This document shows positions 41,311 to 61,404 of a stretch of DNA of 64,000 nucleotides, piece by piece. The stretch lies in the NCBI RefSeq assembly GCF_000988165.1, contig NW_020169300.1, positions 1-64,000 on the forward strand, given 5' to 3'. Made by a program: the position numbers and the translations under genes. Under the pieces are notes generated by a model. The model was not told the origin of the DNA. It made no database searches and saw only the letters and a list, made by a program, of their open reading frames with translations. Numbering within the stretch: the stretch's first letter is position 1; each line of letters starts with the position of its first letter. The stretch comes from Vairimorpha ceranae. Lineage: Eukaryota; Microsporidia; Nosematidae.

Positions 41311-42759
41311 TGAGGGATTAATACAACACAAAAATTATATATTAGAATAAATTAAATATTGTATAAAACATATTGGATAATACAAAAAAAATAAATACAA
41401 ATTTACTGTTATTGTTTATAAACAACAATTTGAATCTTAAAGTAATTTGTTTAAACTTAATATTAAGATATATTTATTGTTAAATTACATTAAAAATTAA
41501 TTAAAAATATTATTTATTTGTGTAAACAAACATCAAACATTCATTTAAATACTAATCTTGAATAAACGCTTTAAAATAATGAATAAAGTAATAAAACGAA
41601 AAATTAAAAAAAGTATTAATAAATTTTTTGCAAATATTTGATTTATAAGTTTAATTTTAAATTTGTATCAAAATTTTGTCCACAGTTATTTTTATAAAAA
41701 TCAATGTCGAGAAAAAATTTAGTGAAAAATTTATATGTCTTTAATTTATCAAATCACAAGGTAAAACAAAATTAAATGACAGTTTTTGAGGAATATTTTA
41801 AATAAGTAAACGTAGTGAAAAAATTTACCTATACACAAATGTTTCATTTTATAAATTCAGATAGAATTTTTTTTTGGTTTACTTTTCAAAAGTTATGTTT
41901 AGCGTAAATTGTGTATTTAATAACTATAAACTTTATAAGATTGTTTAAAAGAGCTAATAAGATAAAAAAGATATAATTTTTAATCATCTTATAGCAAAAG
42001 AATTTTTATACTTTTTATCTAAAATACTAAATATAATTTTTATAATTTATTTATATCCTTAAATAAGACAATGTTAGTGTGGCTAATGCTTTATTAAGAA
42101 AATAATTTAATAGAATCAAAAAAAGATTTATACTTTCAGCTTTACAAAAAGCTATACTTTTTTAACTTATTATAAAAAATGAATTGTACTAACAATTAAT
42201 TGATAAAGTGATTTTAAAGTTGAAAAAAAATTTATTAATATTTGATATTTATACTTAAATTTAACAAAATCTAGAAATCTATATTCAAAATTAATATATT
42301 TTATATAAAAATAAAAGATTAAATATATAGGTATATATAAATTTAAATTATAATAATAATGTTGATGGTAAAAAAGAATAAATTTTGGCACTAGGTTAAA
42401 TTAATACCGATAAATATTTTTTATCTGTAAACACCTTACAAAGCAAATTATATAATTAATTACAAAAAACAAAAAAATAATTCTTATACCATTTTATGCA
42501 CAAAGAAATGTACATGCATAATTTAAATATTATTAAATATATATTTAATGAATCTTTTGGGTGGAACATGTGACTACTTAATGCGTTATAATGCTTGCAC
42601 ATGATTATATGAGACGTATAATGGAGTTCTACAGTGTATTCATTTACAATTATGTATAAATTATAACTTAAATCTTGTAGAAGATCAAGAACCATACCTC
42701 AGGAGATTATTGCAAATAAAGATATCAAAATAGGGGATTATAGTAGAATCTAGGCAAAT
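41311..42759. other. Intergenic, nothing recognised
   Basis: About 1.45 kb, very AT-rich with long A and T runs. Short minus-strand frames at 42170-42391 and 42456-42695 lack start blocks and look like chance. Confidence 0.5.
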
Positions 42760-43180
42760 ATGGTAATCAAATATAATAAGCCAGATATATTTATTGTGGA
42801 TACAATTAAGAAAGAAATTACAATAGCAGAAGTTGAAATTATTGTATTTAAAAACCTTCTACACTGTTGAAACGAAGAAGAAACATAAAAACGATCTTCT
42901 TTCGAATCATAGAGCCTCAATTTATAAGTATAAGTCTAAAATTATCCCTTATGTAATGACGTGGGATAGTATAGTAACAAATTACCACCGCCCATATGCA
43001 AATGACTAGGATTGGGGTTCCGAACTGAGGCATATGTACAAACAAGAGTTCTCAAAATGGAATTGGAAAGCCTAACTATCGCCAATCGCCGAAGCCTTGA
43101 TGCTTACCTGGAGCTAGAAGTAAGTATTGAAAAGGGAAGCTTTAAGATGATGGATTTGATTTTGGAAGCTTTGAAGACTG
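42760..43180 (+). mobile_element. Non-LTR retrotransposon (LINE) 3' fragment, decayed
   Basis: The start of this piece encodes NKPDIFIVDTIKKEITIAEV, matching the R/K-P-D-I-x-V-x-D ... I-I-E/D-V segment after the reverse transcriptase palm of LINE-type elements. After stops and frame changes it gives KIIPYVMTWDSIVTNYH and then EAYVQTRVLKMELES. The reverse transcriptase proper is missing, so this is a dead 5'-truncated copy. Its 3' half (about 42940-43160) is closely similar to the minus-strand copy at 10085-10330. The 60-codon frame at 43012-43194 is simply part of this tail. It ends some 190 bp before the first gene of the 100-residue secreted family. Confidence 0.8.
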
Positions 43181-43300
43181 CATGTAATGAATAAAGAAGA
43201 AAACTTTTTATATACCCTAATAAATATATTTAATTACCTTAAAATATAAAAAAAGAGCTCATTAATGTAGTAAATATCACAATTTGTTACAAGAATAACA

Positions 43301-43320: not shown

Positions 43321-43366
43321 TACAGTGCTTGATTTTTTTACAAAAAAATTGCAAACCACCCCTCAA

Positions 43367-43669
43367 ATGAATATTTGGTTCTTTATACTTGTAGTATTTT
43401 CATTAAATTTATCAACAAGTTGTTATCGAAGCAACGAGTTAAAAGATAGGAGAGAAATTGTGAGCGAATTATCAAAAAAAATTAAAACTCTACATATGCT
43501 TAATGATTTGTATAAAATAAACGAGGTTGAATTTGAAAAAAGACTATTAGCTTTAATTCATTCAGTTTCAGTATTAAATTGTTGCTGTATTAATAATTGT
43601 GAATATAATTCTTTGGTGACTGGTATTGTCAAAGAACAAGGTAAATATCTTAATAAGGTTTTTTATTAA
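43367..43669 (+). CDS. Small secreted cysteine protein, 100-aa family member A
   Basis: The start is the ATG at 43367, three to six bases after a CCCC block; the frame extends 14 codons further upstream but that part is not shared with the relatives. The product is exactly 100 residues. It has a signal peptide (1-18, MNIWFFILVVFSLNLSTS), Cys19 at the expected mature N terminus, a charged helical middle, Cys72-73-74 in NCCCINNCEY, Cys78, and the ending VFY. Five such genes lie in the same orientation between 43 and 61.4 kb. No known family is recognised. The design (signal peptide, small size, fixed cysteines, variable middle) suggests a secreted or surface protein that meets the host; that is inference. 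Confidence 0.85.
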   Translation: MNIWFFILVVFSLNLSTSCYRSNELKDRREIVSELSKKIKTLHMLNDLYKINEVEFEKRLLALIHSVSVLNCCCINNCEYNSLVTGIVKEQGKYLNKVFY

Positions 43670-44059
43670 AAATATTTATAATAAATTTTTTACAAGATCT
43701 ATTATCCCATCGCTTTTTATTACAAAAATTGTAATACTTAAATAACATAGATTACACTTTATTAAAAATTTTTATATATGCTGTCTAAAGTATTTAAAAA
43801 CATTAAGGGTTTAAAAACGATAAATTTTACAAAATAATTAGCACATTTTCAAAGAAGACTACCTGTTGTTTTTGTTTTATAATTATTTTAAAAAACACTA
43901 AAGACAAAGGAGACTTGTGATCTGATAATAGAAGGCCATAATACCTTTTTTACAAAAAATAAATGACGTTAATGTCTTCAAAAATAATTCTAAAAATTAA
44001 ATATTGAAAAAAAAACATTAAGAGGCAAATTTATATTTGTTTTATGAGTTTAAATGAAA
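43670..44059. other. Intergenic, nothing recognised
   Basis: 3' flank of family member A. It has a TTTTTACAA-type stretch also seen after the other members but no gene. Confidence 0.4.
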
Positions 44060-44600
44060 GCATATGCATGTAACAGTATTGGCAAAGTTCTGGCCAGTAT
44101 TGAAAGGACAATTGTAATAATTTAACCTTAGAACAAAAAGATTTAATAATTGTAAAAATAGATTTGTTTGACTAATACATTGATTAGATCATTCGAGAAG
44201 AGACCAAATGCTTTTTGACTGTTATAAACCAGGAATTGTTAGCTTTATCTATTTTTAAAAAATGTTTGTAAAAATTTCATCAAAAAAAAATATAAAATAA
44301 GCTATCTTATACAAGGAGTTTGTGTTTTTGGCTTTGTCGAAAGAAAAAATAAAAAGGTGTACCTTTTTTTTGGTTTTTTAATATTTCTACATTTACATTT
44401 ACAATTTTTCATTAAAGGTATGTAGAGCGAGAAACTACAATCTATAGGGATTTAAGAAAAAAATTTATAAAAATTAACATAAATTTAATTACGAGACTGC
44501 TCACCTCAGTGGATTCCTTAAAAGGTTGAATACAAATCACTAACCTATACCTGGTAAGATATATGTTGTTAATAATTTTGCTAATTGATATGAGCCCAAA
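44060..44600 (+). repeat. Dispersed repeat R1, copy 1 (decayed former coding unit)
   Basis: This stretch aligns in the same direction with 59745-60215. Shared landmarks in order are a segment encoding VLAKFWPVLK, a TGCTTTTTGA stretch, TTTGTGTTTTTGGCYTTGTCG, and GATAAGATATATGTT-like sequence near the right end. Both copies have stops in all frames. It looks like the remains of one gene or element duplicated within the array. The family is not recognised. Confidence 0.6.
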
Positions 44601-44829
44601 GAACCTGTAATGTCATTAAGTTGTCCTTTAGCATAATTGTCGTAATACAATTTAAGTTGATTCTATGTTTTTGACTTGTATTGTTTCTAAATGTTTTGGT
44701 CTTCTGGTGTTGCAAGATAAATATTTTTGAAACATAATAATTTTATTATTAAAACAGTCTGTGCTGTTTCGTTAAAACGAGAGAAGAAAATTAATGTACA
44801 CTAAAATGCTTTTTTGAATTGTATGTTGC

Positions 44830-45460
44830 ATCTTTGCGTGTGTATATATTGTTTTATTTTAAATTCTAGACTTTTTTAATTGAAAAAATCTGCAATATCG
44901 CACATTTTGAATCAAAATTTATGATTAAAACTTATAAAAAATTTACAAATAATGTATGTTTATAGAGAATTGTCTCATGCTATACATTACTGTTTTAAAA
45001 AGAAAATTGAAACAGAATTTTTAAATTTAAAAAAAAAATTTAAAAATAAAAAAATGTTAAAATTCAAACTTTTTATAATAATTTGATTGATGACTAGCTT
45101 AAGCTATCCCGTTTATAATAGGATGATAATAGGTTATCCTATCCCATTTAAAACAAAATTACAAATATTACGTGTGATCTTTCGTTATCCATGTGTGTTA
45201 CCTCTTTTGAGCTTGTATGTATTGTTTTAAATTACAAGAAAGTCTTATTTTTATAAATTAAAATTTGTACCATTACACATTTTTCAATTTTAATAACTGA
45301 ATAAAATTAAAGAAACATACACAAATATATTGTGCCGCGCTTATAGAAATAACTTTACGAAAATGTTACTCCTTTTGTATTGAAAATACAAAGAAGCTTT
45401 TAAATTAAAAAAATGAAGAGCTAAAAAATAAAACAATATACAAATTCAAACTTTTGGATC
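44830..45460 (+). repeat. Dispersed non-coding repeat R2, copies 1a and 1b
   Basis: Two tandem diverged units. Landmarks are GAGCTTGTATGTATTGTT (or GTGTGTATATATTGTT), TTGTGCCGCGCTTATAGAAA and an AAATTCAAACTTTTTATA end followed by GACTAGCTTAAGCTAT. The same order recurs at 51290-51600 and partly at 59200-59400. No coding capacity seen. Confidence 0.5.
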
Positions 45461-45637
45461 AGGTCTATTAGACGGTTTGATTTTAATTCAGGTCCATTAG
45501 GCACCCCGTAAAAAGAAAAAAAATCAAAACTTAAATAATTTTATAATAGATGTAAATTTATCATTTGCACGAAGATCCTAAACATAAACTTTTGTAAAAA
45601 TGCTTTTCTTTGTTCTAAGGTTAAAACTATCAATTTT

Positions 45638-46451
45638 TTAATGGTATTTTCTTTGTTCGAAGGGTAAATTCATCATTTTTTTAGTGGCCAATTTCAGTTT
45701 ATTGTTACAAAACTCCACATTTTGAGTATTTGTGCCAGTATTACGATCAACAAAGCAATATTTATGACAAACTGTTTGATGCTGATATATATTTAATTCA
45801 TTTAGTGATGAATAAGACTTCCATTCATCTGTTACTATAATACTCCTAGGAATTACAATCTGATTTATTATATATAGTAATACTTCTGCAGAACGATTTT
45901 CAACAATAACAGAATAACCCAAAGCTAAAACAAAAAAAGTACCAACAAATACTTAAGCCCAGCACGCAGGTATGTGTCGACTATGATGATTTTTCGCATT
46001 AAAATTTAATTTTGTCTCGTCAATTTTCACGATAATGTTTGGACTGCTAAGTTTATTAAGATGATCTACAAAATATTGTTTAATCATTAAGGCTATAATT
46101 TTTTTAAAGCTAATAACAGCCCTTTTTTAATTTGGACTAGCCCTATAATAGCTGTAAACATAAGGCCTAATGAAAAATAATAGACGCCTTTAAAATAGTT
46201 TTAAGATAAATTCTAAATGACGAAAGAATAGAACTATATCTTATAGACAGAGTGGTTTGATATTTAATATATGCATATTGTATGTATCTCCACCCAAATT
46301 CATCTATATGCCGTTTACTAATCTTGAAGGCAATGTTTATATTGAAATAAATGCAAAGCTGCTGGTTTTTTAATATGTTATATCTAAATAACATTATTAT
46401 GATTTCGTAGTTGCTCATCAAGGCAATTTTGTCTCCTATATTTCGATTCAT
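45638..46451 (-). mobile_element. Merlin/ISXO2-type DDE transposon relic, copy 1
   Basis: On the minus strand the pieces of a transposase appear in order. First comes DEFGWRYIQYAYIKYQTTLS with following SSILSSFRI (N-terminal region, where W-R-C and S-I-R-x-x-S-F-F are expected). Next is a segment with VKIDETKLNF (first catalytic Asp), then IVTDEWKSYSSLNEL (second Asp) with the H-K-Y-x-F-V-D and T-G-T-N-T-Q-N-V-E (Glu) segment. This is the IS1595/ISXO2 layout of eukaryotic Merlin transposons. Frameshifts and stops separate the pieces, so the copy is dead. Terminal inverted repeats were not found by eye. A second copy of the same family is at 47985-48720. Confidence 0.85.
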
Positions 46452-46609
46452 TTAAAGGTTAAAAGATATGCAAAAAAGTAAAAAATAGCAGATCCATTAG
46501 ACGCTCCAATGGGATCGATTATTAATCCGACCTAAAATTTTTTATTATTGATGAATTAAGTTTTGCTTTTAATAGGACTAAAACTGCAAAATGCTCATGT
46601 GCTTTTTCT

Positions 46610-47600
46610 TATTTCAATTGTATGTTACAGGTTTAGAGCAAAATCTCATGTAATATTTTTTATTCCTTCTTTTTATACTATTAAAATTTGTTATGGCACA
46701 CTTCTTTCAATTAACTTATTAATTTTAACCATATTTAAATACAGACAAATTTGTTTTGTGCATAAAATGATAAATATTTTAATAATACTACCATTTTTAA
46801 ATTAAAAAATAAAAATTCTTAAAAAAGGGGTTAAAAATTAAATCAAATTTTTCTTATCTTTTTAATATATAAAATAAATTGCATTTTAGAGCTTTGTCTT
46901 CTTTAAATGCACCAATTATATTTTTAAATTATAAAACATGATAAACTTAATATTTCTTTTTTATAAAGGCCAATCTAATTCAAATAATTATTTTATTTGG
47001 TAGTATTTCACATAAATTTACCAAATATTAAGAACCAAAATAAAATTTAAGTAAAAATTTTATACTTTTTAATAAATATTTTCTTAAACAATTAACATTA
47101 ATTCTGATACTGTTTATTTGCATATTAAAAAATAAGTTCATTTTTACATTATATTTTAAATATAATGCGTAGTATTTTTACAAATAAAGTTACAAATCAC
47201 CCCTTGTATGAATATTTGGTTCTTTATAATTACAGTATCCTCATTAAATCTACCGACAAGTTGATATCAGGGCAACGAGTTGGAAACCAAAAGAGAAATT
47301 GTAGAGGATATTTTGATTGAAATTCACTTTTTGATTTTTCTATATGACGATTACAAAGTGGACGAGGATGAATTTAAAATAAGACTATTGTGTTTAATTC
47401 ATTCAGTCTCGGCAGCAAATTGTTGCTGCATTGATAATTGCGAATATAATTCTTTTGTGACAGATATTGTAGAGGAACACAGTGAATATCTTAATAAAAT
47501 TTTTTATTAAAAATCTTTTACTTAATTTTTTTAATTAAGCATTTTTACAAAGTTTAACAAAAATTTGTGATTTTTATAATTAACTTAGATTATAATTAAT
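46610..47600 (+). repeat. Segmental duplication, copy 1
   Basis: This ~1-kb block matches 53584-54575 in the same direction, about 6.97 kb away. From the left edge to the middle of the family gene I see only one substitution (T46763 against C) and one C in the start block before the genes diverge. The match resumes in the 3' flank. The frame at 46563-46805 lies inside the block and is also kept in copy 2, but it has no start block and I do not treat it as a gene. Confidence 0.9.
47208..47510 (+). pseudogene. 100-aa secreted family member B, nonsense at codon 19
   Basis: From the ATG at 47208 (CCCC block four to seven bases upstream) the frame matches the other members codon for codon for 100 codons, except that codon 19 at 47262-47264 is TGA where all relatives have TGT for Cys19. 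Downstream the frame stays open through the CCC-I-D-N-CEY motif to the family ending IFY. With one stop and no frameshift the inactivation looks recent, or the base may be a sequencing error. The signal peptide part is identical in DNA to member C at 54183, while the mature part differs at many codons. Confidence 0.85.
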
Positions 47601-47984
47601 TTATTAGAAGTTTTAAAGACTCTGTATCCTGTATTAAATAAAGACAATGAAAGAAAGTATTTTTAATTTTATTTAACTAAACTTTTTATCTATTAAAGTT
47701 TTTCTAATAATCTTAATATTTGTGAATTTGAAATTTTTTTAATTATTCAACCCACCTATTTACAAAACTTTATTAATTTCTTATTTTTTATTTAAGTTTG
47801 GTATTTCTAAAAAATTGGTAGGATTTCTTAGAATTAATGCCAACTTATTTCACACTGTACTTTTAAAATTCAATATAGATTATTAAAAAAATAAAAACAG
47901 GTTCTCCCAGTCCCCCGTAAAAACAACAATTTAAATAATTATATAAAAGACAAAAATTTTTCACTAGTATGCCGCTCTCTAAAC
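47601..47984. other. Intergenic, nothing recognised
   Basis: AT-rich DNA between family member B and the second Merlin relic. A CCCCC run at 47912-47916 on the plus strand is not followed by an ATG within 20 bases. Confidence 0.4.
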
Positions 47985-48720
47985 ATAAATTCTAATAAAA
48001 TCGCCTTTCTTTAAGCTCTAGCTAATCCATTTCTTGCTTTAATTTGAGCCTTAAGCCTGTTATTATAAGAAACTACGCCTGAGTATGCACGCCAGTAATA
48101 GGATCTACAAAAAAATTGTATTTATGACAAACAGTGTAATATTCATAATCAACTGAGTTAGATAAGTTTTTATAAGCTTTCCATTCATCGTAGGGTATAA
48201 TACCGCCGGCCTTAACAACAGAATTTATTATAGAAATAAGAACGGTTGCAAATATAGATTTTACAATAATAGCATATCCCAGTGCAGATTAAATGATGTA
48301 TCTACGGTGCAAAAACACCAAAAGGCCTGTGAAGAGTTATTTTTATGACCAAAAACATCATAATTCAACTTGGTTTCATCTATTTGCACAAAAATATAAG
48401 GACATTCTAGTTTAATAGAATTGTTTGTGAAAAATACGGCATTTCGTTCGATATAATTTTGCTGCTTGATTAAAGGGGTTTTCCCGAAGCCTAAAAGTTT
48501 AATGATTTTATAATAATTTTTACCATACGCACAGTAATTGATTGATTTACGTATTTTTTTAATATCATTTTAAAATAGTAGAGCTAAGAATTGGAACACA
48601 GAAAGTGGTTGTCTGGTAGTTCTTACAAGCATATAAGGAGCATCTCCACTCAAACTTGTCAGGAATTTTAGAACTATGCATTAGGCGCATATTTTTATGG
48701 CAAAACTTACAAGTCTATTC
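47985..48720 (-). mobile_element. Merlin/ISXO2-type DDE transposon relic, copy 2
   Basis: The same transposase as at 45638-46451, in the same orientation and more damaged. Recognisable pieces on the minus strand are KFEWRC followed by ACKNYQTT (N-terminal), VQIDETKLNYDVFGHKN (first Asp), and DEWKAYKNLSN (second Asp) with a following H-K-Y-x-F-F-V-D segment, broken by several frame changes. The two copies differ at many positions, so they come from separate or old insertions. Confidence 0.8.
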
Positions 48721-49475
48721 ACATCTGATTAAACTTCATTTAAAAATAAAGTTTACATTTCGCTTTCACCTGCTTTAATAATTTAATCTAATTCTGCTTT
48801 TTCAACGCATAAAAAGTATAAAATTTGAAAATTTAATATGATATAATATTTTTCGCTAGTCTTCGACGGTGAATTGGTAAGACTTGATCCATTAAATATC
48901 GAGCAACAACTAGCTGTTTTGTTAGTCTGCTTTAATTTTTTAAAAAGTGTTTAGGAAAAGTACTTTTTTTTATAACGTAAGTTTTACAATGAAATACAAC
49001 GAAAGTATTCTAAGTCTTATCATATTTCAATGGATATGCTAATGGGATATTTGCAATTTTGAAGTATGTAAAAACATGCTTTATCTTTAAATCACAATTC
49101 TCAAAAGTAACACAGCCATTTTCAAGTTTAACTTTTGTAAGGATTTTTCTAAATTCTTGTTTAATTATTATTATTTAAGTTTACTTATTTTTTTAGAATT
49201 TTGTTTATTTTTTAAAAATTCATGCCATTTTTACTTTTTATTAAATTTGTGATTTTAATTAAATTTTTATAATGTAAAAGTCAAAAAAATTTGCTAACAG
49301 ATATAAAATAAAATAAAATAAACAAATACATATTTACTGATAAATCATATGCTAGATTGTATCATGCCACTAAGATTATTATTATAAATCATAAACGTTT
49401 ATTCTATTTTATTTTTAAAAATTTTATTTAGCTAATTATAGATTTTTAGAAAGATTTTTAAATATACCCCTCAAA
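48721..49475. other. Intergenic, nothing recognised
   Basis: About 750 bp between the Merlin relic and the split secreted gene. No gene or RNA recognised. The CCCC block of the next gene lies at 49467-49470. Confidence 0.45.
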
Positions 49476-50800
49476 ATGTTTAAATTCTTTTACTTTTTTA
49501 CAGGCATATGTACCTCAACAAATAATGAATCGATCAATACTACGGAATCTGTTGCAAGTGATATAAATGAAAATATCAAAAAAATAAATATCAATATAAT
49601 CAAATTCTAAAGGGAAACGATAGCACAAATCAATTTTTAGGACAAGAGAACTGTAAGCTGGGGAAAACAAATGGAAATACCTTAGATTTAGAAAAAGAAA
49701 TACAATTTAACAATAGAATAAGCTCTACCGCAGATAATCCCATTTTTTATACAATGAATTTTAAGTGCTTTCAAGATAATAACAACACTACAAATAATGA
49801 ACCTGTTGAAAACCCTAACATGAAAAAACGTAAATTAGATGGTAATAGTAAATTTGTAACGCTTGAAAATAAAGAACATCCATTACAAATTTTTCAAAAT
49901 AGTCCAAAGATATACTATGGTAGTACATCTAACTGTTTTAAATCTCAAAAACAGTATGATGGATTATTAAACTCTGATAAAGCGATAAATGACCAAAGTG
50001 AAAATAAAAATTGTATAGATATTATAATATATAAAGATAACAATGATTTACTGAATAAGATTTATAATTATTATACTGAAATATTTAATATGTATCTAAT
50101 TTCTATAAAAAATTTAAATAACAATCCTGTATTTCAAAATGAAAGAGTACAATTTAATAACCAACAATTGACAAATTTAGATATATTTTTGGATTTTTTT
50201 AAAGAGATTCTAGGTCATGGTAAATCTTTATTTGACAAAGCCAAAAATGAGAAAATTTCAATTCCAAAAAAAGATTTCTTTTTTGGAAATATAGACAAAA
50301 AATTTCTATCTGAATTATCAAAGCTTAAAACCCTATATGATTCGAAGGGAAGAACCATAAACAATAGCATTGAACGTCATATAAAAAATATAGAAGAGAA
50401 TTCTTTTTTTAAAGAATCTTCATGTGAGTCCATTAAAAGATTAATAATAGAATGCAATATGTTTATAAAAGAGGTAGTAAAGCATTTCATGTATTTTAAA
50501 TCGGCTGTTTACTTGAATGAGAAAAATTTAAGTTTAATTTATTATGAATGTAAAGATATCTCACAAAGATTTGCAGTTATTTCACGAGATGTACATCTAG
50601 AATGTATTGTTGTAATTATAAAAATGCTAATTGAAAGATTAGAACACTTTCGAGATTTTTTAGGTAAGATAAATCGTAATTTAATTATGTTTTTTAATTC
50701 TGTGGCATGTTTGTCTACAGATATTAAATGGTTAATTTCCTCTTTAAAAGACATTATGGATAGTATTGATAAAAAATATGAATGTAGAGAGCTTAACTAA
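49476..50800 (+). pseudogene. Secreted helical protein gene, split by a frameshift
   Basis: A CCCC block at 49467-49470 marks the ATG at 49476, which opens a 44-codon frame with a short signal-like start (MFKFFYFFTGICTS) and ends at a stop at 49608-49610. From 49571 another frame is open without interruption to 50800, and translates to similar Asn/Ser/Thr/Lys-rich sequence before the internal Met at 49754. One gene of about 440 codons is therefore split by a single missing base, most simply in the A7 run at 49578-49584. The main part (residues after 49754, 348 codons) is polar then helical and coiled-coil-like, with YECKDISQRF and conserved-looking cysteines. No family is recognised. Real mutation, sequencing error and slippage are all possible. 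Confidence 0.75.
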
Positions 50801-51289
50801 TATATTTTATAAATATTAAATTTATTAGACGTTTTTATATTATGTTAAAAAAATATCTTTGCATTATTTTACAATTAATAAAAAAAATTATCATTCTTAT
50901 GCATATATTCAGTCTAAAGTACTTAAGATGACAGTGTAAAGCTTAACTGTGGAAAACCCGAGGAAAATTCAACTAAAAAAGGTGTTTAGATATAAATGAG
51001 TGAACAAAAAAAAGAAGTTGAACCAATTGATAGGCAGGTACTTACTGAACATTATGTGTATATAATAAAAAATTAATATTATTATATCTAAAGTAAATTA
51101 TTTTTATACTTTCATTAGTATTGCTATTAGAATAGTAAATTACAACTTAGAAAGAACAAATAAATCACAGTAAGATAAGGCTTATTGAAAATTTTCATAG
51201 TAAATATAATAAAAAATGTATTGCAGTATACAATAATTTATGTATTATAACTTAACTTTCTTTTAATAAAAAATTTTACAAATTTTAAA
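50801..51289. other. Intergenic, nothing recognised
   Basis: Holds a 26-codon frame at 50996-51076 (MSEQKKEVEPIDRQVLTEHY...) of coding-like composition but no start block; possibly a gene scrap. Confidence 0.4.
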
Positions 51290-51600
51290 TAGAAAGGTCA
51301 AAAAATAAATAAATGTTCAGATTCAAACTTTTTATATATATTGACTAGCTTGGCTATACCATTTTAATGTGATGAAAAAACGATAAATCTCTTTTTCTTA
51401 GTTTACGTTATGTCTTTGAGCTTGTATGTATTGTTCAATAGTATAAAATGCACTCTTAATCAATAATTTACCTTTACAATAGTCACTGTTCTATGATTTA
51501 AATTTTTTGATAAAATTAAAGGAGATGCACAAAAATATTGTGCTGTGCTTACAGAAATAAACTTAACGCTAGCTGCCTTTTTCACTAAATTATTTTTGTA
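51290..51600 (+). repeat. Dispersed non-coding repeat R2, copy 2
   Basis: Shares with 44830-45460 the ordered landmarks ATTCAAACTTTTTATA, TTGACTAGCTTGGCTAT, TTGAGCTTGTATGTATTGTT and TTGTGCTGTGCTTACAGAAAT. The copy ends where the MULE relic begins, so R2 may be the left flank or terminal part of that element. Confidence 0.55.
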
Positions 51601-51608
51601 CCCCTAAG

Positions 51609-53010
51609 ATGAAAATCAACCTTAGTAAAAATATTATAAAAAGCATAAGAGATGGATTAAAAATTGGATATGAAAGCTATTTTTATAATTTTTTAATCAT
51701 TTTTTTTTAACTTTAATAGATGGAGATGTTATAAAAGAAGTTGTAAATCTTAGGTGCTAAGTAACCTATAAAATTAACCTATATCTCTATCTGAGCATAA
51801 CCATTTGGCTAATGAAAATAAAATTTTATAAACTATAATATTAGAAGAAGCACTCATATTACGTGTTTAGAATCGTCAAAGGATATTATTTTTAATGTTT
51901 TATAAAAAAATGATGAAAGTGAAATAGAAATCAAATACAAATATTAAATAGATAAAATTATTAAATTTGGAAAATTTAATAATTTTTCACTATCTTCTGA
52001 TTATGATATTCCAAAAGGATTATTATACACAGTAAGTGGCAAGCCATTTTTGCTTTTTGATACCGGGATGGATGATTCTGAAAGAATTTAAATCTTCTTG
52101 GCAAATGAAAATATTGAACATCTCAAAAACAACACTATTATATGTTGTGATGGGACTTTTAAGACTGCTCCAACTAGCTTTGAACAAATATTTACTTTTC
52201 AATGTAGATTTTTAATGAATTTAAGTCTTTGGTATATTGTATTATGAAGAGAAGAATTACAGCTTGTTATATTAAAACTTTGACATAGTTAAGAGATGTT
52301 AAACTGACAGATAAACATAACATAATTTTGGACTTTAAACAAAATTCGTTAAAAGCCTTTTAATTAATTTTTACTAATAATCAATGTATGGACGTGTACT
52401 TCATCTAGGCCAAATTTTTGAAAAAAAATCACGCAGGCGGGTATGCAAGTAAATATAAAAGCGACAAAAGTTTTCGTTTAAATATAAAAATGCTTCTGTC
52501 GTTGACGTTTGTATCACCTTCTTTTGTATTGTTAGAGACTATAAGGCTTAAAAATTATTTTTGACTGAAAAATGCAGTTTATCATTGAAAATTTTTGACT
52601 AGTTTTATAATTTGTATCTTTTTAATGATGCAAATACAAACAATTGCATTGGCTTTTGCAATGCTTATAAAAGAACTATAAACAATACTCCTAAAACAAA
52701 TAGTTTACGAGGATTTCAAAGACAATTGAATTCATTTACTAATAGTTAAGATTCAGTAATTTCGCTATTTTTCTAAAACTTTAAAAAAAGAAATTTTAGC
52801 AGAAAATTTTTTCATTACTTTCTTGTACAAATGAGATAGGAAAAAAAGACAAAATGCATGCTATAGTCTGTGATTATGAAAAATATTTCGGAAATGATTG
52901 CTTAAAATGCATTGCTTTAAACTTTAATTCAACTGAACTATTTAATTTTATGAAACATTATTTAAACTTTTAAAATTGAATTATTTGCCAGGAATGCGGC
53001 CAATGGAGAG
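51609..53010 (+). mobile_element. Mutator-like (MULE) transposon relic
   Basis: Pieces of a MULE transposase occur in order with many stops and frame changes. A start with a zinc-finger-like lead (IKSIRDGLKIGYESYFYN, later SEHNHLANEN) comes first. Then follow the catalytic-core piece GKPFLLFDTGMDDSERI, ICCDGTFKTAPTSFEQIFTF (D-G-T-F-x-x-A-P-x-x-F-x-Q, diagnostic of the family), LGQIFEKK and FRLNIKMLLSLTFVSPSFV (C-terminal F-x-x-x-I-R-M-L-x-A-L-A-F-V-P). Notably the first ATG at 51609 follows a CCCC block at 51601-51604, the same start signal host genes use. The copy is dead. No terminal inverted repeats were seen by eye. Confidence 0.88.
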
Positions 53011-53583
53011 GTAGATCTCATCACATTAAGTATACGTGGGCCTATTCCTGACGTTCCGTAAGATTTGAAATTGGAATGAGAAATAGTATATTTTAAATGA
53101 TATCTATTTACATTTCTCCGAGATGTTCTTTGAGGACTATCTTTTCTAAATCTTTCGGTTTGACCGACTCATTGATTATCTCCTTGTGTATACATAGTAT
53201 TAAGGGTAAATTTCTTTTTATAATTTTATTTGTTGACACAACAAACATACATAAAGAAGAAACATATGGTAGAAAAAATTACTACAAAAATATAAAAAGG
53301 GCATCATTTTTAATAAAAATTGCTCCCAAAATTCTCCACCATAAAAATTCTTTTTTTATAACAAAGAAGTACAAAAATTATTTAGTTAAAAAAGCGGCAA
53401 GCCTAAACTTCACAATAATCCTAAGTTGTATTTTACTTTTTTAAATATAAAATTAAGTTAGAATTTGACAAAATTTTAATAAAAAGATTAAAAAATTAAC
53501 TTAATATTATAATTCAAACTGTAATATATACTAGCTTATAATTTTCAGTATAAACAAAATTTAATAAAATGTTTGCTTTCTTT
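53011..53583. other. Intergenic, nothing certain
   Basis: The 115-codon frame at 53097-53444 is lysine-, isoleucine- and phenylalanine-rich with no start block or recognisable motif. I leave it out as a gene. GGCCTATTCCTGAC near 53039 resembles GGCCTTATTCCTGAC near 56930 and may mark an element edge. Confidence 0.4.
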
Positions 53584-54575
53584 TATTTCAATTGTATGTT
53601 ACAGGTTTAGAGCAAAATCTCATGTAATATTTTTTATTCCTTCTTTTTATACTATTAAAATTTGTTATGGCACACTTCTTTCAATTAACTTATTAATTTT
53701 AACCATATTTAAATACAGACAAATTTGTTTTGTGCACAAAATGATAAATATTTTAATAATACTACCATTTTTAAATTAAAAAATAAAAATTCTTAAAAAA
53801 GGGGTTAAAAATTAAATCAAATTTTTCTTATCTTTTTAATATATAAAATAAATTGCATTTTAGAGCTTTGTCTTCTTTAAATGCACCAATTATATTTTTA
53901 AATTATAAAACATGATAAACTTAATATTTCTTTTTTATAAAGGCCAATCTAATTCAAATAATTATTTTATTTGGTAGTATTTCACATAAATTTACCAAAT
54001 ATTAAGAACCAAAATAAAATTTAAGTAAAAATTTTATACTTTTTAATAAATATTTTCTTAAACAATTAACATTAATTCTGATACTGTTTATTTGCATATT
54101 AAAAAATAAGTTCATTTTTACATTATATTTTAAATATAATGCGTAGTATTTTTACAAATAAAGTTACAAATCACCCCCTTGTATGAATATTTGGTTCTTT
54201 ATAATTACAGTATCCTCATTAAATCTACCGACAAGTTGTTATCAGGGCAGCGAGTTGGAAACTAAAAGAGAAATTGTGAAAGAATTTGTGGTTGAGATTC
54301 GCAAATTGTATGCTTTATATGAGGATTACAAAGTGGACGAGGATGAATTTAAAAAAAGACTATTGTGTTTAGTTAATTCAATCTCGGCAGCAAATTGCTG
54401 CTGCATTGATAATTGCGAATATTATTCTTTTGTGCGAACTAATATCGAGGAACACATTGAATATCTTGAAGAAGTTTTTTATTAAAAATTTTTTACTTAA
54501 TTTTTTTAATTAAGCATTTTTACAAAGTTTAACAAAAATTTGTAATTTTTATAATTATCTCAGATTTTAATTTAT
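53584..54575 (+). repeat. Segmental duplication, copy 2
   Basis: Direct duplicate of 46610-47600, carrying family member C. Near identity covers about 600 bp of 5' flank and the first 18 codons of the gene. The 3' flank is also matched for roughly 80-90 bp before it drifts. The left edge is sharp at TATTTCAATTGTATG. Confidence 0.9.
54183..54485 (+). CDS. Small secreted cysteine protein, 100-aa family member C
   Basis: An intact 100-codon member with a CCCCC block just before the ATG. Signal peptide MNIWFFIITVSSLNLPTS (1-18), Cys19, Cys72-74 and Cys78 in ANCCCIDNCEY, and ending EVFY are all present. It is the duplicate partner of the disrupted copy at 47208. By hand the mature parts differ by 24 amino-acid replacing codons against 5 silent ones, while flanks and signal peptide are nearly identical. 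That imbalance points to selection for change, or to import of the mature part from another paralogue by recombination. The conserved promoter-like motif lies 66 bases upstream. The cellular role is unknown. Confidence 0.88.
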   Translation: MNIWFFIITVSSLNLPTSCYQGSELETKREIVKEFVVEIRKLYALYEDYKVDEDEFKKRLLCLVNSISAANCCCIDNCEYYSFVRTNIEEHIEYLEEVFY

Positions 54576-55294
54576 TAAAAATTTAATTAAGTCTGTGTTC
54601 TGCATTGAAGACCATAAAAGTACTTTATATTTAGATAAAAAAATCATAACATGCTTACTTGTATTAATTGGTGAAATTAGAAACTATTTTACAAATATAA
54701 AACTTATTAAACATTAATCTTAAAAAGTAATTGGTGCGTTTTTATTTTTTTTAGATTTATCTAAAACAGAAGCTACAAATAGATAAAAAATTATTTAAAT
54801 ATGAAATAAAATAAACAATTAAATAGTCTTTAAACTTTATTAGTTTGGTCATGTACTCCCTAAAGAATAATTCTCTGCATGATATTTCCGTCAAAATTAT
54901 ATTCAACTAAACTCTTTAATATTGTCGCGAGCCACGCTGATGACGCTTGGAGATTTGGCTGGAACTGGTTCTAGAAAAGTTGAACACGCTTTTCTAAAAA
55001 ATTTAAATATAATTATTTGCAAAAAGTTTTGAAAGATCTATCTCTTTTAGACGCACTAGAAGACCCCGTAGACCAGATACATTTTAAATTTATAATTAAA
55101 AGAAGAATTTAGCAAAAATAGTTTAAATTTTTTTGTTTATGTTTATATGCATTTATTTTGTGATAATAATTGAATAAATTGAAAATTATATAATTTAGTA
55201 CTATATCTAATTTCTCTAATTTATGTTATACTAAAAAAATAATATAACTATACACCTATTCAAAAAATAAATCTAAAAAATTAGCAATATATAT
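54576..55294. other. Intergenic with possible LTR scrap
   Basis: AT-rich except for 54920-55090, which is less AT-rich. TATTGTCGCG at 54920-54929 repeats at 55292-55301 and may be the first bases of a second LTR copy. No gene seen. Confidence 0.4.
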
Positions 55295-55660
55295 TGTCGC
55301 GCGCACAGAGCGCGACCATGCTTTTTTTTATTTTTTTAAAACTCAAAATTTACATTTTTGTATCGATTTGAACTTTCGTATTATATATCTTATATTATTT
55401 ATATTGATTATTCTTATGTAGGTGATAATGTCATATAGAAATTCGCTTTCCTATATTAATTACGATTTTAAATGTATTACACACCACATAAACAAACTAA
55501 TCAATACAGATAGATACATATATAATATATATATGTATTCTACAGAATTACTACCCGTCAGCTTTTTACGAACGCAAGACACAATTTCCTTCAGGGATTT
55601 AAATAAAGGCTTGTCTATACGCCTTTGCAGGCCACCGTGCGAATTGAACATATACAACAA
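55295..55660 (+). repeat. Possible LTR with GC-rich terminal hairpin
   Basis: The stretch opens with TGTCGCGCGC and contains a perfect 7-bp stem, GTCGCGC (55296-55302) and GCGCGAC (55310-55316), remarkable in such AT-rich DNA. Further on, TTTAAATAAAGGCTTGTC near 55599 looks like a promoter or poly(A) region, and ACATATACAACA near 55650 could be the end. A Ty3-type integrase relic begins about 200 bp later, so this is best read as its LTR. The 82-codon frame at 55422-55670 falls inside and is probably not a gene. Confidence 0.35.
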
Positions 55661-55859
55661 CAAGGTCTAAGTTTTTTTGAAATAACAACTTGACCATAGT
55701 TACTGCTAATTTGATTTGGATTTTATAAAAAATAATACACAAGGAAATTTTTTAAATTATTCTTATGAGGCCTACGATCAAACCACAAGAAGAATACGAT
55801 AACATCGTAAATATTCTTAAGGCGAAAATACGACAGTAGATGGCAACAAACATACTAAG

Positions 55860-56650
55860 TATTGTTTGAAAAGGAAGGCCGAGCTGTTTATCTTGATAGA
55901 TAATTTACTTTATCTGAAAGATACAGAAAATGGTCATAAACGGGTGTTTAAGAAGAAGCAGTAATTTTTATAAAAACAGAAGTACAAAAACTGCACAATC
56001 AAAACCATTATGGTCATAATCGTCTTTAATAGTTGTGCAAAGAATTTTACTTTTCAATTCCTAGATGTGCTGTTAGAAAGGTTTGTAATGAGTGTAATAT
56101 CTACTTACAAGCTAAGCCACTGAAGATAAAGGAGAAGTTTAAGCATATTTTGGCTAAGAAACCCTTTGAGAGATTAATCATTGATCTTGTTGATATAAGG
56201 ACTTACGCAGAACAAAATAATTTTTTTAGTTGAATACTTATAAGTATAACTGTATATTCTAAATATACAATTACTTATGCCATCAAAAGTAAGACTGCAG
56301 CTAAGGTTCTTTCAAATCTTAACATGACTTTTTATAAACTTGATGATCCTCAAATAATTCATTGTGATAACGGAAAAGAATTTAGAAACTCTTGTTTGAT
56401 TGATTTTTGTAAGGAAAAAAACATTATTCTGATACATGTAAGGCCGAGACATTCACAAGGTCAAATCGAACGATTTAACCAAACACTTACACGTTATTTG
56501 CAAAAGCATCTGTGTAATGGCGTGTTTGCTACCGGTAAAAATTGGACTGCGCTTTTGGATAAGGTGTTTTATGAGTATAATATAGCTATACATTCTGCAA
56601 CTAATAAGTCACCTTTCAATCCATTTTTGATAGAAATGGGTTCAATACTG
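55860..56650 (+). mobile_element. Ty3/gypsy integrase relic
   Basis: Broken pieces of an LTR-retrotransposon integrase occur in order. An HHCC zinc module comes first (YGHNR at about 56009-56023, then CNECNIY near 56087). Then follow ERLIIDLVDIRTY (first catalytic Asp), IIHCDNGKEF (second Asp, near 56345) and QGQIERFNQTLTRYLQKHLC (Glu, near 56460), ending NIAIHSATNKSPF. Stops between 56030 and 56310 split the frame. No protease, reverse transcriptase or RNase H was seen upstream, so most of the element has been deleted. The core at 56324-56653 remains open for 109 codons but cannot act alone. Confidence 0.88.
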
Positions 56651-56653
56651 TAA

Positions 56654-58472
56654 CATGTCCTATAGATAGTAGCATTGTTGATTCGGATAAGAATCATATT
56701 GATATACAAGTTAAAATATTGAAGAGGATAATAATAAGGACATTAGTACAGTTGGAACAAAACATGGGTTTATTTATTATAAAATATTTACAGAAGACAA
56801 ATCAAATGTCTCACAGTGCAGAATAATTATTTGACAGCTAAGTATTCCTACAATATCTTCTTCTTATAATTTACACAGAACTTAGGAAACAGATTTATGT
56901 CCCTTGAGCGATTGTGATCTACCTAGCCACTGGCCTTATTCCTGACATTTACTTTGCTTTTATATCTAAGCTTCTATTACAGCCAAGAGTAAATATCATG
57001 GGAGGTTACATTATTTTCCTCTTTAATATTCTAATGAAGAACTATTACGAATCTTCTTGCAGATAATCAAGTTATTCCAAATTTTGAGTTCTTTTTTAAA
57101 TTGTAATGACATAAAAGACTATACCATTTTATGTTACTATATATTGAAACTTCTTTGTTTACACTATAATTTAATAATAATAATTATAATATTTAAATTT
57201 TAATAATATATTAAAAAAAATATTTCAAAAAGAAAAGTAATGAACTTTTAAAGAAATCCTAAAATTTATTAAATAAATAATATTGTCGTATTTATGGTAA
57301 AGCAATTCCTATTTAAAAAAATCCCTGAGTAAATTCTTTATTAATGGTTCTCTATGGCTTTATTTACCAGATTGGTTCTTGTAATTAATGTTACTAATTT
57401 TACTATTAAAATGCTCTTCTAATACTTTCTTTTTTTTTGTCGGATATAAAATAAAAATTTATTTTTCTAGAAAATTCATAATTTTTTAAGCATTAAAAAT
57501 TAAATTTTGTTGCATGTGAAAAAATACCACAAATATGAATAAAAATAATTTAACTAAAACAAAAATTTACAATAAAAGCCTTTTAAAGCTTTTATTAAAA
57601 AATGGCCATGTTTCTTTTTGACTTTGTGATAATAAATTACTAATATTTAATATTTGTTAAAATTATATATATAAGATTTTTTGCCATTAACGGTGTGTTA
57701 TACTTAGATACTTAATTATTTTTATTGTTTACATAACACTAAACGTAATATTTATCTTACTCAATATTACAATTATTATTATAGCTTAAGGTAAATTTTC
57801 TTAATTAATGTATCAAACCATTGTTTATTTGTGTATTTAAAATATTAATAAGTTTGCAATGGATACCCAGAAGATATTCATATGAAAAGCTACAAAAACT
57901 ATCAAAATAAACAAAATTCTTTAAAAGCTTTTAAAATCTAGCACTATGTAAGTATTATTTAAAAAATTTATTATTTATACCTTTATTTTTAATTGAATGA
58001 GTGATAATTGCGCAATAAAGATTTTGAAATAAACAACATTTAAAAGCAACTTTTACTTTATTTATATTAACATTTTATTAACTAAACTGATAAAGTTTAT
58101 TTGACAACTAAACAATTAATGAAATTTTATACGAAAAACAAGCTTTTTACATTATTTTTTATAATTGACTTAATTTAAAATTTTAAAAAATGTTATAAGA
58201 AAAGTTGGCTTTTTACTAATAACAAACCAATTCTAACTATCAATAAAAAGATTTTAATTGTTTATGCAAATCTGATCTAGTAAAGTTGCATCATTTTAAC
58301 AACAAAAGTCAAGTTTAATTTAAAATTTGTAGACTTCTTAATTTAATTTCTTTTTAAATTAATTTTTTATTTATTTAGTTTTTTTTCGCATATGTTTTAA
58401 AATATCACTTTTGCGTCATATTATAAATACGGAGTGTGATTCTTACAATAAAAGTTAAAAATTACCCCTCTT
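56654..58472. other. Gene-poor stretch between Ty3 relic and family member D
   Basis: About 1.8 kb. A short frame near 56745-56840 (TVGTKHGFIYYKIF) reads like former transposon coding sequence. The rest is AT-rich without features. The 5' flank of member D lies at the right edge, with a weak form of the family's upstream motif (CATATGTTTTAAAATAT near 58389-58405). Confidence 0.4.
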
Positions 58473-58775
58473 ATGAACATTTGGTTATTTATAATTACCG
58501 TATCCTCATTAAATTTGCCAGAAAGTTGTTATCAAGGCGACGAGTTAGATGCCAAAATCGAACTAATAACAGGTTTAGTAATTGAAATTAATTTATTACA
58601 AGTTCTAAATGCGAAACAGGAAGTAGGCGAGGTTGAATATAAGAAAACAATTTTACAATTAATCCAATCAATATCAGCAGAAAATTGCTGTTGCATTGAT
58701 GCTTGTGAATATAATTATTTTGTTAATGACGTAATCAAAAAACATAGCAGTCTTCTTGATAAAATTTTTTATTAA
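58473..58775 (+). CDS. Small secreted cysteine protein, 100-aa family member D
   Basis: Intact at 100 codons, with an ACCCC block three to seven bases before the ATG. Signal peptide MNIWLFIITVSSLNLPES, Cys19, ENCCCIDACEY with Cys72-74 and Cys78, and ending DKIFY are kept. The middle (residues 23-68) differs strongly from members A-C, with LVIEINLLQVL and VEYKKTILQLIQ retaining only the hydrophobic pattern. The length is identical to the others without indels, which argues for a tightly packed fold in which cysteines and hydrophobic spacing matter and surface residues vary. Flanks are more diverged than those of B and C, so this is an older copy. Confidence 0.87.
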   Translation: MNIWLFIITVSSLNLPESCYQGDELDAKIELITGLVIEINLLQVLNAKQEVGEVEYKKTILQLIQSISAENCCCIDACEYNYFVNDVIKKHSSLLDKIFY

Positions 58776-59199
58776 AGAATTTTTAACTTAAATTTTATAA
58801 TTAAGCATTTTTAGCAAAGTAAATCACATCAATTTTTTTACAAAAAACTGTAATACTTCATGATTAGCAAAGGTAACAATTCATTAAAAATTTTAATTAT
58901 GTTTGTCTTGTATTGAAGAACATGTAAGTAAATTTAATTTATTCAACTAAACTTTTTATTTTATTTAAGTTTTCTTGATAATGCTAATATTTGTAAATTT
59001 ACTGTTTTTTAATTAAACATCTCTCAATTTTACAAAAATTAATTTATTTCTTACAATGTTACATCCATCCATTAAAAACAGGATGTTAAATATGCTTAGA
59101 TAATTTATGTGGTTGTTTTTTTTTAAATGTATAGTATTTTGTTGTAGCAACCCCTTTTTGTATTAAATTTGAAAGTTTACTTTCTTTTACTATAAATTA
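58776..59199. other. Intergenic, nothing recognised
   Basis: Begins with the family 3' flank (TTATAATTAAGCATTTTTA shared with members B and C). No gene follows. Confidence 0.4.
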
Positions 59200-59400
59200 A
59201 TTCTACGATTCTTGTACTCTTTACAATTTAAAAATTTGAATAATCGAAAAAAAAGTAAGAAAAATACTTAATTTTTTGTGCCGTACATGAAATAATTAAC
59301 TTAAAAAACTTTTTCTTATTTTAAAATGTAAGATTGATACAAATTTAAAAAGGATAGGTTAAAGAATAAATGTTCAAATTCAAACTTTTTAATCAAGATT
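59200..59400 (+). repeat. Dispersed non-coding repeat R2, copy 3 (partial)
   Basis: Has TTGTGCCGTACATGAAATAA near 59276 and AATAAATGTTCAAATTCAAAC near 59368, the same two landmarks in the same order as at 45330-45450 and 51300-51560. More decayed than the other copies. Confidence 0.45.
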
Positions 59401-59744
59401 ATACTATTTTTAGTATTTAATAGAAGCATATTGACGTGAGTCTTAGAGATAGCATTTATCCTTAAATACTCCTATAACACACTAATCATAATTGTGTTGA
59501 TAGATGGCCTGTTCCGACAGTTTAATAATTTCTTCTGAGTTTTTTAGTTTTACCTAAAAAGAATTTTTTTTAATGAACATGTTTTATTTATCAATTTTTT
59601 AGATAGTCTTACTACCTTTAAGTAAACAATCATTTTTAAAAAAGTCCTGTCATTATTACGTATTAAAGATTTTAAATTATTGTGCTAAAATTTAATTAAA
59701 TTTCTTTATAATCTTTCGACCATCACATTGTATTATACCGCACG

Positions 59745-60215
59745 TATACAGTGTTAGCATTAGCAAAATTCTGGCCAGTATTGAAGAAATCATTTAAAAT
59801 ACTTACATTTTTAGATAAAAAAGACCTGCTTCTTGTAAACAGAGATTTATTAGACTACCCCTTTAATTCAATCTTACAAATGATTAAGTGCTTTTTGATT
59901 GCTATTAAGTCATGCATCGTTAATTGTTTCTATTTGTAAAAATCGTTGATTTAAATTTTGACAAAAGATATTTATATAAAATGTTTGTGTTTTTGGCCTT
60001 GTCGAAAGTAAAAAGAATATACTTCTTTTTTAATTTTTTACAATTTTTGATTAAAGTTGTGTGGCGTAAAAGAATCCAATCTAAAAAGATTGGTGGAAGA
60101 TTATTTAAATATACATTAATTAATCACAAAACTGCTTACCACTGTGATTCTTTACAGAATAGAACAGAACTTATCAATATATACTTGATAAGATATATGT
60201 TATAAAAAAATTGTG
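59745..60215 (+). repeat. Dispersed repeat R1, copy 2 (decayed former coding unit)
   Basis: Better preserved than copy 1. It encodes LAKFWPVLKKSFKILTFLDK followed by KDLLLVNRDLL in one frame, and after a break IGGRLFKYTLINHKTAYH with NRTELINIYLIRYML in another. Together these suggest a former protein of at least 140 residues. I do not recognise the family. The direct partner is at 44060-44600, 15.7 kb away, and both sit in gaps of the 100-residue gene array. Confidence 0.6.
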
Positions 60216-61101
60216 CTAATTACCATTCAATGTACAACTGCATGAATCTTCTAAAAAAATTTACAAAAATTTTATTAAAAAAGTTATTTTTTTTTATTTT
60301 TACATTTCAACATTATTTTTTGAATAATAAATTAATTATTGATTAATTCTTATTACAATACTTCACTTCATTAGATTTATTTTAAGCACAACATAATTTT
60401 CAGGTTATGTTACACATCATAGTTTTTATTTTTTAGAAAATTTCGTGTACTTTATAATTTGTAAGACTGGGAAATCGCACCATGATAAAGTTCAAATCAA
60501 AACATTGCTCTAGAAAAAAAAAATAATTTTGTTACATTTCTGCTACCTATAATTTTAAGTGCACAAATATTCCCTACTGCAAAATATAATTGTAGTAAAG
60601 AGATACATTTTATGTGGCTTTAATATTATAACTTCCATTTCAACCAAGAATGAATGTTATGAGTAGTTTAACTTAACACTTATTTTTACTTAAATCGATA
60701 AAATTTTAAAAAATCAAACAATTGAGAAAAAATTTTATAGTAAAATAAAAGCTTTTGTGTTGTCTATAAATATTTATACAAATTGAGGTTTTTTAAAAAT
60801 GTTAAAAAGGAAAATTCGTTTTTTCAAACAGCAAGTCATATTTTTTTATCAAAAAAAAGTTTTACTTGTTTATTAAATTAAATTTTTAAATTTATTATAT
60901 TGTGACAGCAAAAATCAATTTTTTATTAAAAATACAATACTGTCAAATTTATTTTCACTATAAACACTAAAATTAATTCTAAGATGGTTTTTTGCACATG
61001 GAACACAATATTAACGCTTTTACTTTATATTTTAAATATTTTATACCTTTTTAGATTAAAATATTATTTTTTTACAAGTAAAATTGTAAATACCCTCTTA
61101 A
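60216..61101. other. Intergenic, weak repeat
   Basis: Around 60555-60680 a TTTTAAGTGCACAAATATTC stretch resembles TTTTAAGTACACAGATATTC near 61980, with loose similarity for about 120 bp after each. The two flank family member E. No gene seen. The shared upstream motif is at 61018-61037. Confidence 0.4.
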
Positions 61102-61404
61102 ATGAACATTTGGTTTTTTATAATAACAGTATCTTCATTAAATTTGTCAAAAAGTTGTTATCAAGAAAACAAGCTTCAAGAAAAAAAACAAATTGTGACA
61201 AATTTATTGTTTGAAATTCATGATTTAATTACTTCATATAATTTAAGCAAAATTGAAAGAAATGAACTTGATAAAGTCCTATTTTCTTATATTAATTTAA
61301 TATCATCATTCAATTGCTGTTGTATTGACGATTGTGAATATAATTCTTTTATAACTGGTATTGTTAAAGGCCTAGGAGGATATTTTAGTAAAATTTTTTA
61401 TTAA
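61102..61404 (+). CDS. Small secreted cysteine protein, 100-aa family member E
   Basis: Intact at 100 codons, an ACCC block before the ATG. Signal peptide MNIWFFIITVSSLNLSKS, Cys19, FNCCCIDDCEY with Cys72-74 and Cys78, and ending SKIFY are conserved. The middle is again diverged (KQIVTNLLFEIHDLITSY). It is the last member in the window and closest to member A in its 5' flank (TTTTACTTTATATTTTAAATA at 61018). A different frame at 60984-61214 overlaps the start and is only a shadow. The signal peptide DNA stays much more alike across all five members than the mature part. Confidence 0.87.
   Translation: MNIWFFIITVSSLNLSKSCYQENKLQEKKQIVTNLLFEIHDLITSYNLSKIERNELDKVLFSYINLISSFNCCCIDDCEYNSFITGIVKGLGGYFSKIFY

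Follow-up and report, generated by a model that had tools for sequence, protein, structure and literature searches.

A candidate family of small secreted cysteine-containing proteins in Vairimorpha ceranae

Five short genes of one length

The first 64,000 nucleotides of contig NW_020169300.1 of the important honey-bee parasite Vairimorpha ceranae (assembly GCF_000988165.1, forward strand; this whole stretch is referred to as the window) contain five short genes of the same length on the same strand, here named g1 to g5, and the locus raises the question of whether these are real genes of one family and, if so, where their products may act. The five copies look like real genes. Purifying selection acts on their start and their cysteine motif, while change is rapid in residues 21-66 and in some of the tail. 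The chances are, in our view, about even that they form a small secreted-protein family of V. ceranae, which arose from a duplicated unit of about 0.6-1.2 kb and whose variable segments face the bee, this assessment being made from sequence and predicted structure.

Five plus-strand frames of 100 codons each had been pointed out at this locus by a first-pass annotation, and the translations of the open reading frames (ORFs) bear this out (Table 1). The shared features that it listed are present in all five copies: the MNIW start, the FY end and, at residues 71-80, the motif N-CCC-I-x-x-C-E-Y, in which Cys72-74 and Cys78 are fixed. It is also correct that Cys19 is kept in four of the copies and replaced by a stop in the fifth, which is the TGA of g2. 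In addition, I39, L42, E55 and S68 are invariant in the five copies, and g3 has a sixth cysteine, at position 62. The three other intact copies (g3, g4 and g5) have 46-55% protein sequence identity to g1, and the pairwise DNA identities among the five copies are in the range of 64-87%. The N-terminal start of the family is hydrophobic and, as judged by eye, secretion-like.

Constraint on the coding regions

When indel events are counted over the 10 pairs in fixed-length pieces, end gaps included, there are none in the coding part, as compared with 40 in the 160 bp of 5' flank and 29 in the 100 bp of 3' flank. Selection at the codon level was assessed with maximum-likelihood codon models written for this analysis (GY94, F3x4, with the TGA codon treated as missing data), using the five sequences and the best of three trees tried, out of 15 possible trees. 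A single omega of 0.43 is obtained, and omega=1 is rejected (2ΔlnL 18.0, p 2e-5, where 2ΔlnL is twice the log-likelihood difference). Four blocks fit better than one omega (2ΔlnL 62, 3 degrees of freedom), the values being 0.10 for residues 1-20, 0.87 for residues 21-66, 0.22 for residues 67-80 and 0.46 for residues 81-100. For residues 1-20 (p 3e-12) and 67-80 (p 1e-6), omega=1 is rejected, the omega of residues 21-66 is not different from 1 (p 0.54), and the block order is unchanged when any one of the copies is left out. The M2a model is favored over M1a (2ΔlnL 7.86, p about 0.02), with sites 41 and 43 being highlighted.

The copies are considered to be real genes because of the absence of coding indels when compared with the many indels in the flanks, because omega is 0.43 with 1 rejected, and because the start and the cysteine motif are constrained. 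That this is a real family, whose cysteines are fixed, whose start is conserved and resembles a secretion signal and whose middle varies, is supported by the sequence comparison as well as by the codon models. The statement that the middle varies freely without indels is right with respect to the indels, but 'freely' is slightly too strong for a region that includes four invariant residues and has an omega of 0.87.

These data also bear on the possibility that the array is a decaying duplicate cluster, in which the copies are passengers that were multiplied together with mobile DNA, one of them being stopped and the others drifting. The in-frame TGA of g2, the near-neutral middle and the fragments of mobile elements that lie between the copies (one of a transposase and, weakly matched, one of an integrase) would agree with such a history. 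Nevertheless, it is made quite improbable by the rejection of omega=1, overall and for the two constrained blocks, by the lack of coding indels as compared with the flanks, and by the existence of an open allele of g2.

Copies in the genome and relatives in the databases

The whole assembly (4,559,957 bases in 116 contigs) was searched with the protein sequence of g3, which returned only the five copies at E values up to 1, all of them with E values of 1.6e-25 or better; only top-ranking candidates are scored in such a search, and parts of the genome may be absent from the assembly. The similarity between the five copies is more than chance, as seen from the DNA identities and from the g3 search returning these five alone. 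No credible sixth copy is found in the whole 4.56-Mb genome by the protein searches with g3 and g5 and by the DNA search. The single additional protein match, from the g5 search and at C66:15130-15315 (E 0.009; 31% identity over residues 3-68, with one internal TAA), was rejected, as this locus holds a long frame that looks phosphatase-like by eye. The nine rows of the DNA search correspond to the five copies, three short repeats and one minus-strand match of 57 bp that lies within the 3' flank of g5. A repeat of 58-66 bp (85-86% identical) is common to the 5' part of the g2 unit and to C39:41561-41621, C62:136407-136464 and C40:118414-118479, and one copy of it is located about 260 bp from a tRNA gene on C39 with a UCA anticodon, which is discussed below.

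In the protein database, a profile made from four sequences gives six matches from 163 candidates, two of which are the window's own proteins. The remaining four are P0005, a one-residue variant of g3; P0006, a g2 allele; P0008, a one-residue variant of g4; and G9O61_00g022280 (P0009), a hypothetical protein of Vairimorpha ceranae. With a control gene, V. necatrix, N. bombycis, N. granulosis and Encephalitozoon are named among the best 120 of 2265 matches (V. apis is not named there), and the lack of named relatives of the five genes in the same database is therefore of some informative value. Distant relatives, with some 50% identity, may well escape detection, however, since a search with residues 40-100 of g4 gave a single candidate, which is the allele of g4 itself, and did not recover the four remaining copies.

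At the outset, no known family had been recognized in these copies, and this is supported by searches of Pfam, NCBIfam and PDB, the latter at both the sequence and the fold level, which give no strong match to a characterized family. None of the five proteins (g1, g3, g4, g5 and the open g2 allele) reaches a curated cut-off of Pfam-A or a cut-off of NCBIfam, and there is no convincing sequence or fold match for the family in the PDB. The best Pfam score is 18.5 bits, for a cut-off of 27, and concerns the match of g3 with the phage portal family PF21919 (E 7.7e-4), which is also matched by the open g2 allele with 14.1 bits; for g1 and g4 no families are listed. The wording 'apparently undescribed' can be kept insofar as no published description of the family is found in the titles and abstract starts of the best-ranked papers. 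It does not extend to the kind of family, as secreted families restricted to one lineage have been described in microsporidia before, and the five genes appear, by analogy, to be a further case of these.

Predicted structure

Two AlphaFold models, led by g3 and g5, agree on helices near residues 22-47, 53-71 and 78-99, and in both models the cysteine cluster is found between helices 2 and 3. The angles between the variable residues and the hydrophobic face are 160, 115 and 136 degrees for the three helices. The modeling suggests that a variable face may be exposed; when each helix was expected to have one, two of the three did not pass the hydrophobic moment test.

The main rival to contact with the host is a spore-wall or other structural protein. 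It is conceivable that the products are secreted without being directed at the host, as cysteine-linked proteins of the spore wall, the polar tube or the parasite surface, with the middle as a helical spacer. The fixed cysteines fit such a loosely constrained spacer, as does the near-neutral middle, whose omega is not above 1, and the five conserved cysteines (19, 72-74 and 78) are an odd number, such that one of them could link molecules (g3 having its additional cysteine). The lack of a curated Pfam match over cut-off does not help this explanation, being compatible with a structural role all the same, and the clustering of the changes in two segments, together with the weak M2a signal, exceeds the needs of a spacer. 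Weighing these points, we regard a structural role as somewhat unlikely.

The duplicated unit and the g2/g3 mosaic

Self-comparison of the window reveals a common unit round each gene, which ranges from about 0.6 kb (g1) to 1.2 kb (g2/g3), as well as weaker matches between the intergenic spaces, for example between 59756-60221 and 44075-44586, at 66% identity. Within this unit, a run of three to five C is located 5-9 bases upstream of the ATG in all five copies, and an AT-rich block about 45-80 bases upstream, seen by eye, is common to them as well. The C run is not restricted to the family: CCC is present within 20 bases upstream of 24 of 31 ORFs examined in the window (selected after removal of three that overlapped with longer ORFs), the four intact copies included, with GGG being found for one ORF and neither of them for six. 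A CCC-type motif is described as a known Nosema motif in PMC2685015 and PMC11592040, and the latter source links it with active transcription.

The closest pair is g2/g3. Upstream of these two genes, there are two mismatches and one gap in 601 bp, and the first 18 codons are identical, codon 19 being the first to differ. From codon 21 to codon 100, 38 of 240 bases differ, and overall 30 codons are different (codon 19 included), 25 of these differences being non-synonymous or a stop. The similarity is not uniform along the gene. In codons 33-47, g2 is no closer to g3 than to g5 (62% for both, at the upper end of the 42-62% spanned by the ten pairs), codons 48-66 of g2 and g3 are 95% identical, and in codons 81-98, g2 is 80% identical to g1 as compared with 76% to g3.

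Selection alone has been set aside as the cause of this pattern because the divergence at silent third positions and in the 3' flank exceeds the upstream divergence. Where a codon specifies the same residue in both copies, its third position differs in 4 of 57 cases, as compared with 2 of 601 upstream bases (p 7e-4). In the 3' flank, there are 5 mismatches in 96 plus a 4-nt gap in a gapped alignment and 9 of 96 or 20 of 110 differences in ungapped counts, and this flank is more diverged than the upstream part (p 2e-15 for the 20/110 count). The body of the gene is not clearly faster than this 3' flank (38/240 versus 9/96, p 0.16; versus 20/110, p 0.64), only the gapped alignment leaning toward a faster body, and therefore it is the 5' tract, being too alike, that is the odd part of this pair. 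This suggests that gene conversion, or copying of the promoter and start, accounts for the 5' tract, which protein-level selection alone does not explain. The excess of differences in codons 33-47 may be due to selection or to exchange with a copy since lost, as none of those present in this genome would be a suitable donor of this segment.

It can be imagined that the array as a whole is a case of diversification driven by conversion, with a common promoter and signal peptide and with segments that are exchanged or selected apart by the host, providing a small repertoire of interchangeable secreted variants. We consider this extended scheme to be unlikely.

Table 1. Coordinates of the five genes, of their upstream motifs and of the segments compared between g2 and g3 (positions in the window)
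Feature	Position	Strand	Remark
g1	43367..43669	+	100 codons + TAA
g2	47208..47510	+	100-codon frame + TAA, in-frame TGA at codon 19; open allele in protein database
g3	54183..54485	+	100 codons + TAA
g4	58473..58775	+	100 codons + TAA
g5	61102..61404	+	100 codons + TAA
CCCC before g1	43359..43362	+	promoter-type motif
CCCC before g2	47200..47203	+	promoter-type motif
CCCCC before g3	54174..54178	+	promoter-type motif
CCCC before g4	58465..58468	+	promoter-type motif
CCC before g5	61093..61095	+	promoter-type motif
Duplicated unit round g2	46600..47812	+	88.8% identical to 53574-54766
Duplicated unit round g3	53574..54766	+	partner of g2 unit
5' tract of g2 (upstream DNA + first 18 codons)	46607..47261	+	nearly identical to g3 tract
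Matching 5' tract of g3	53581..54236	+	
Variable segment 1 (codons 33-47) of g2	47304..47348	+	identity of 62% with both g3 and g5
Variable segment 1 (codons 33-47) of g3	54279..54323	+	
Variable segment 2 (codons 81-98) of g2	47448..47501	+	closer to g1 (0.80) than g3 (0.76)

The stop codon of g2

The stop in g2 is polymorphic, as the database allele P0006 is open through all 100 codons. The record G9O61_00g022280 equals the g2 sequence minus 15 codons, and the missing stretch of 45 nt starts with GT, ends with AG and contains the TGA. From this we infer that the gap is a false annotated intron that steps over the stop, in which case the stop is also present in that assembly; the false intron seems to remove the end of the signal peptide. 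The only named database record of the family thus seems to be mis-spliced, which is a point for annotation. The prefix G9O61 is presumably the locus prefix of the 2021 long-read genome. For the latter genome, RNA-seq support is reported for all 2,280 predicted genes (PMC8206274). Expression of g2 is therefore likely, provided that the record indeed belongs to that gene set.

UGA generally still is a stop, and g2 is most simply viewed as a loss allele. Translation of g2 despite its TGA, by a UGA-reading tRNA that would keep all five copies active, appears to be very improbable. It is suggested by the gene of a tRNA with a UCA anticodon at C39:41883-41967, one among 56 tRNA matches examined in the genome, and by the rare use of TGA as a terminator, which closes 2 of the 75 ORFs with 120 or more residues and 0 of the 52 with 200 or more (TAG ends 9 and 7, respectively; 43 loci, 199 kb, window included). 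Such a UCA tRNA was reported by Cornman et al., who took it for a selenocysteine tRNA (PMC2685015). However, reading through TGA creates no ORF of at least 150 residues from two pieces of at least 60 residues in the 199 kb, the corresponding numbers being 2 for TAG (the same place, in two loci) and 8 for TAA, and a general reassignment of UGA is rejected on this basis; for g2, the loss of one allele suffices. The UCA tRNA looks to be of the leucine type rather than a tRNA-Sec, since it shares its acceptor stem and A73 with Leu-CAA and Leu-UAA; its long variable arm, A73 and acceptor stem are features that we take to mark leucine identity. It is not among the 25 listed matches to RF01852, all of which stay below the cut-off, and the genome search gave no match for SepSecS, such that the selenoprotein reading of codon 19 has neither a tRNA-Sec over cut-off among these 25 matches nor a SepSecS match in its favor.

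Two observations on the tRNA genes are added here. The tRNA at C39:41883-41967 is possibly a leucine tRNA that reads UGA, and a second leucine-like tRNA, to which ARAGORN assigns an ACA (Cys-codon) anticodon, is encoded at C93:14659-14742.

A possible role in contact with the bee

Returning to the reading in which the variable segments face the bee, the following mechanism can be envisaged. The duplicated unit would comprise the promoter, the gene and the 3' flank, and the hydrophobic start would act as a signal peptide, leaving a mature protein of about 80 residues that may fold as a helical bundle pinned by the cysteine cluster. The variable segments, on helix 1 and on the C-terminal helix, would then be in contact with a partner that itself changes, which is most probably a molecule of the honey bee within the infected gut cell or in its surroundings. 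Gene conversion would keep the control region and the signal peptide alike, and the variable parts would drift or be exchanged or selected apart.

Several observations count against this mechanism. Evidence for sites with an omega above 1 is weak (p about 0.02 with five sequences and 3 of 15 trees, and the likely recombination can inflate the M2a test), and the g2/g3 pair does not clearly diverge faster in the body than in the 3' flank. The confidence of the two AlphaFold models is low (mean predicted local distance difference test scores of 64 and 62), and both models are derived from one seven-sequence alignment. Of the three helical stretches tested, residues 79-98 alone have a significant hydrophobic moment (p 0.008), unlike residues 24-47 (p 0.33) and 53-71 (p 0.40). 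By eye, no basic residue is present between the Met and the hydrophobic stretch, and no relative from outside the species that would allow the changes to be polarized is found in the database search. All in all, the family may reasonably be regarded as a candidate for bee contact. The five genes are short, with a conserved frame and two marked variable segments, and can be traced in existing RNA-seq data, proteomes and isolates, and a comparison of isolates would test whether microsporidian secreted families diversify by gene conversion.

DNA between and around the copies

The first-pass annotation placed the copies among dead transposons. The family scan of the ORFs detects a single IS1595-type transposase piece (45638-45922, E 7e-10); an integrase piece at 56324-56653 is matched weakly (E 1.5e-4, which is below the Pfam cut-off), and no other mobile piece is identified in the scanned ORFs. 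Also within the array, a plus-strand ORF of 348 residues (49754-50800) has no family match over cut-off. An inverted duplicate of about 450 bp, 77% identical, relates 42824-43266, directly upstream of g1, to 10435-9989. Beside the array, on the minus strand, three adjacent paralogues (35750-36547, 37686-38507 and 40510-41331) encode a hydrophobic, probably multi-pass membrane protein; these paralogues have 35% and 25% identity and no Pfam match. Further away, a plus-strand gene (8491-9687) encodes a protein of 398 residues whose start is secretion-like and which carries LFGGS / LCGGSEPES repeats; its Pfam match to the FG-nucleoporin model is over cut-off but probably compositional.

Comparison with known systems

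The small secreted cysteine-containing effectors of filamentous fungi are a known functional type. The V. ceranae proteins are similar to these effectors in being short, with a secretion-like start, fixed cysteines and a variable body, and differ from them in the helical prediction and the single cysteine cluster, no sequence or fold match between the two having been found. With the N. ceranae multi-gene families described by Cornman et al. in 2009 (PMC2685015), the five genes share the species and the lack of homologues in general databases. Those families differ in having at least ten members each and in being located almost all on short contigs, and Cornman et al. suspected that they are mobile elements.

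According to Reinke et al. (PMC5423893), microsporidia commonly have large families that are mostly confined to a genus or a species and in which signal peptides or membrane segments are enriched. The large families of that study have at least ten members, and host exposure was measured by tagging, unlike the present family, which has five members known from sequence; it matches the type, though not the size that defines a large family there, and this small number of members is also to be counted against the host-facing reading. The likeness is with the clade-specific host-exposed proteins of Nematocida in the same study, as described there: these and the five V. ceranae proteins are lineage-restricted (as far as searched for the latter), have a secretion-like start, change fast, occur as paralogues and have no known domain.

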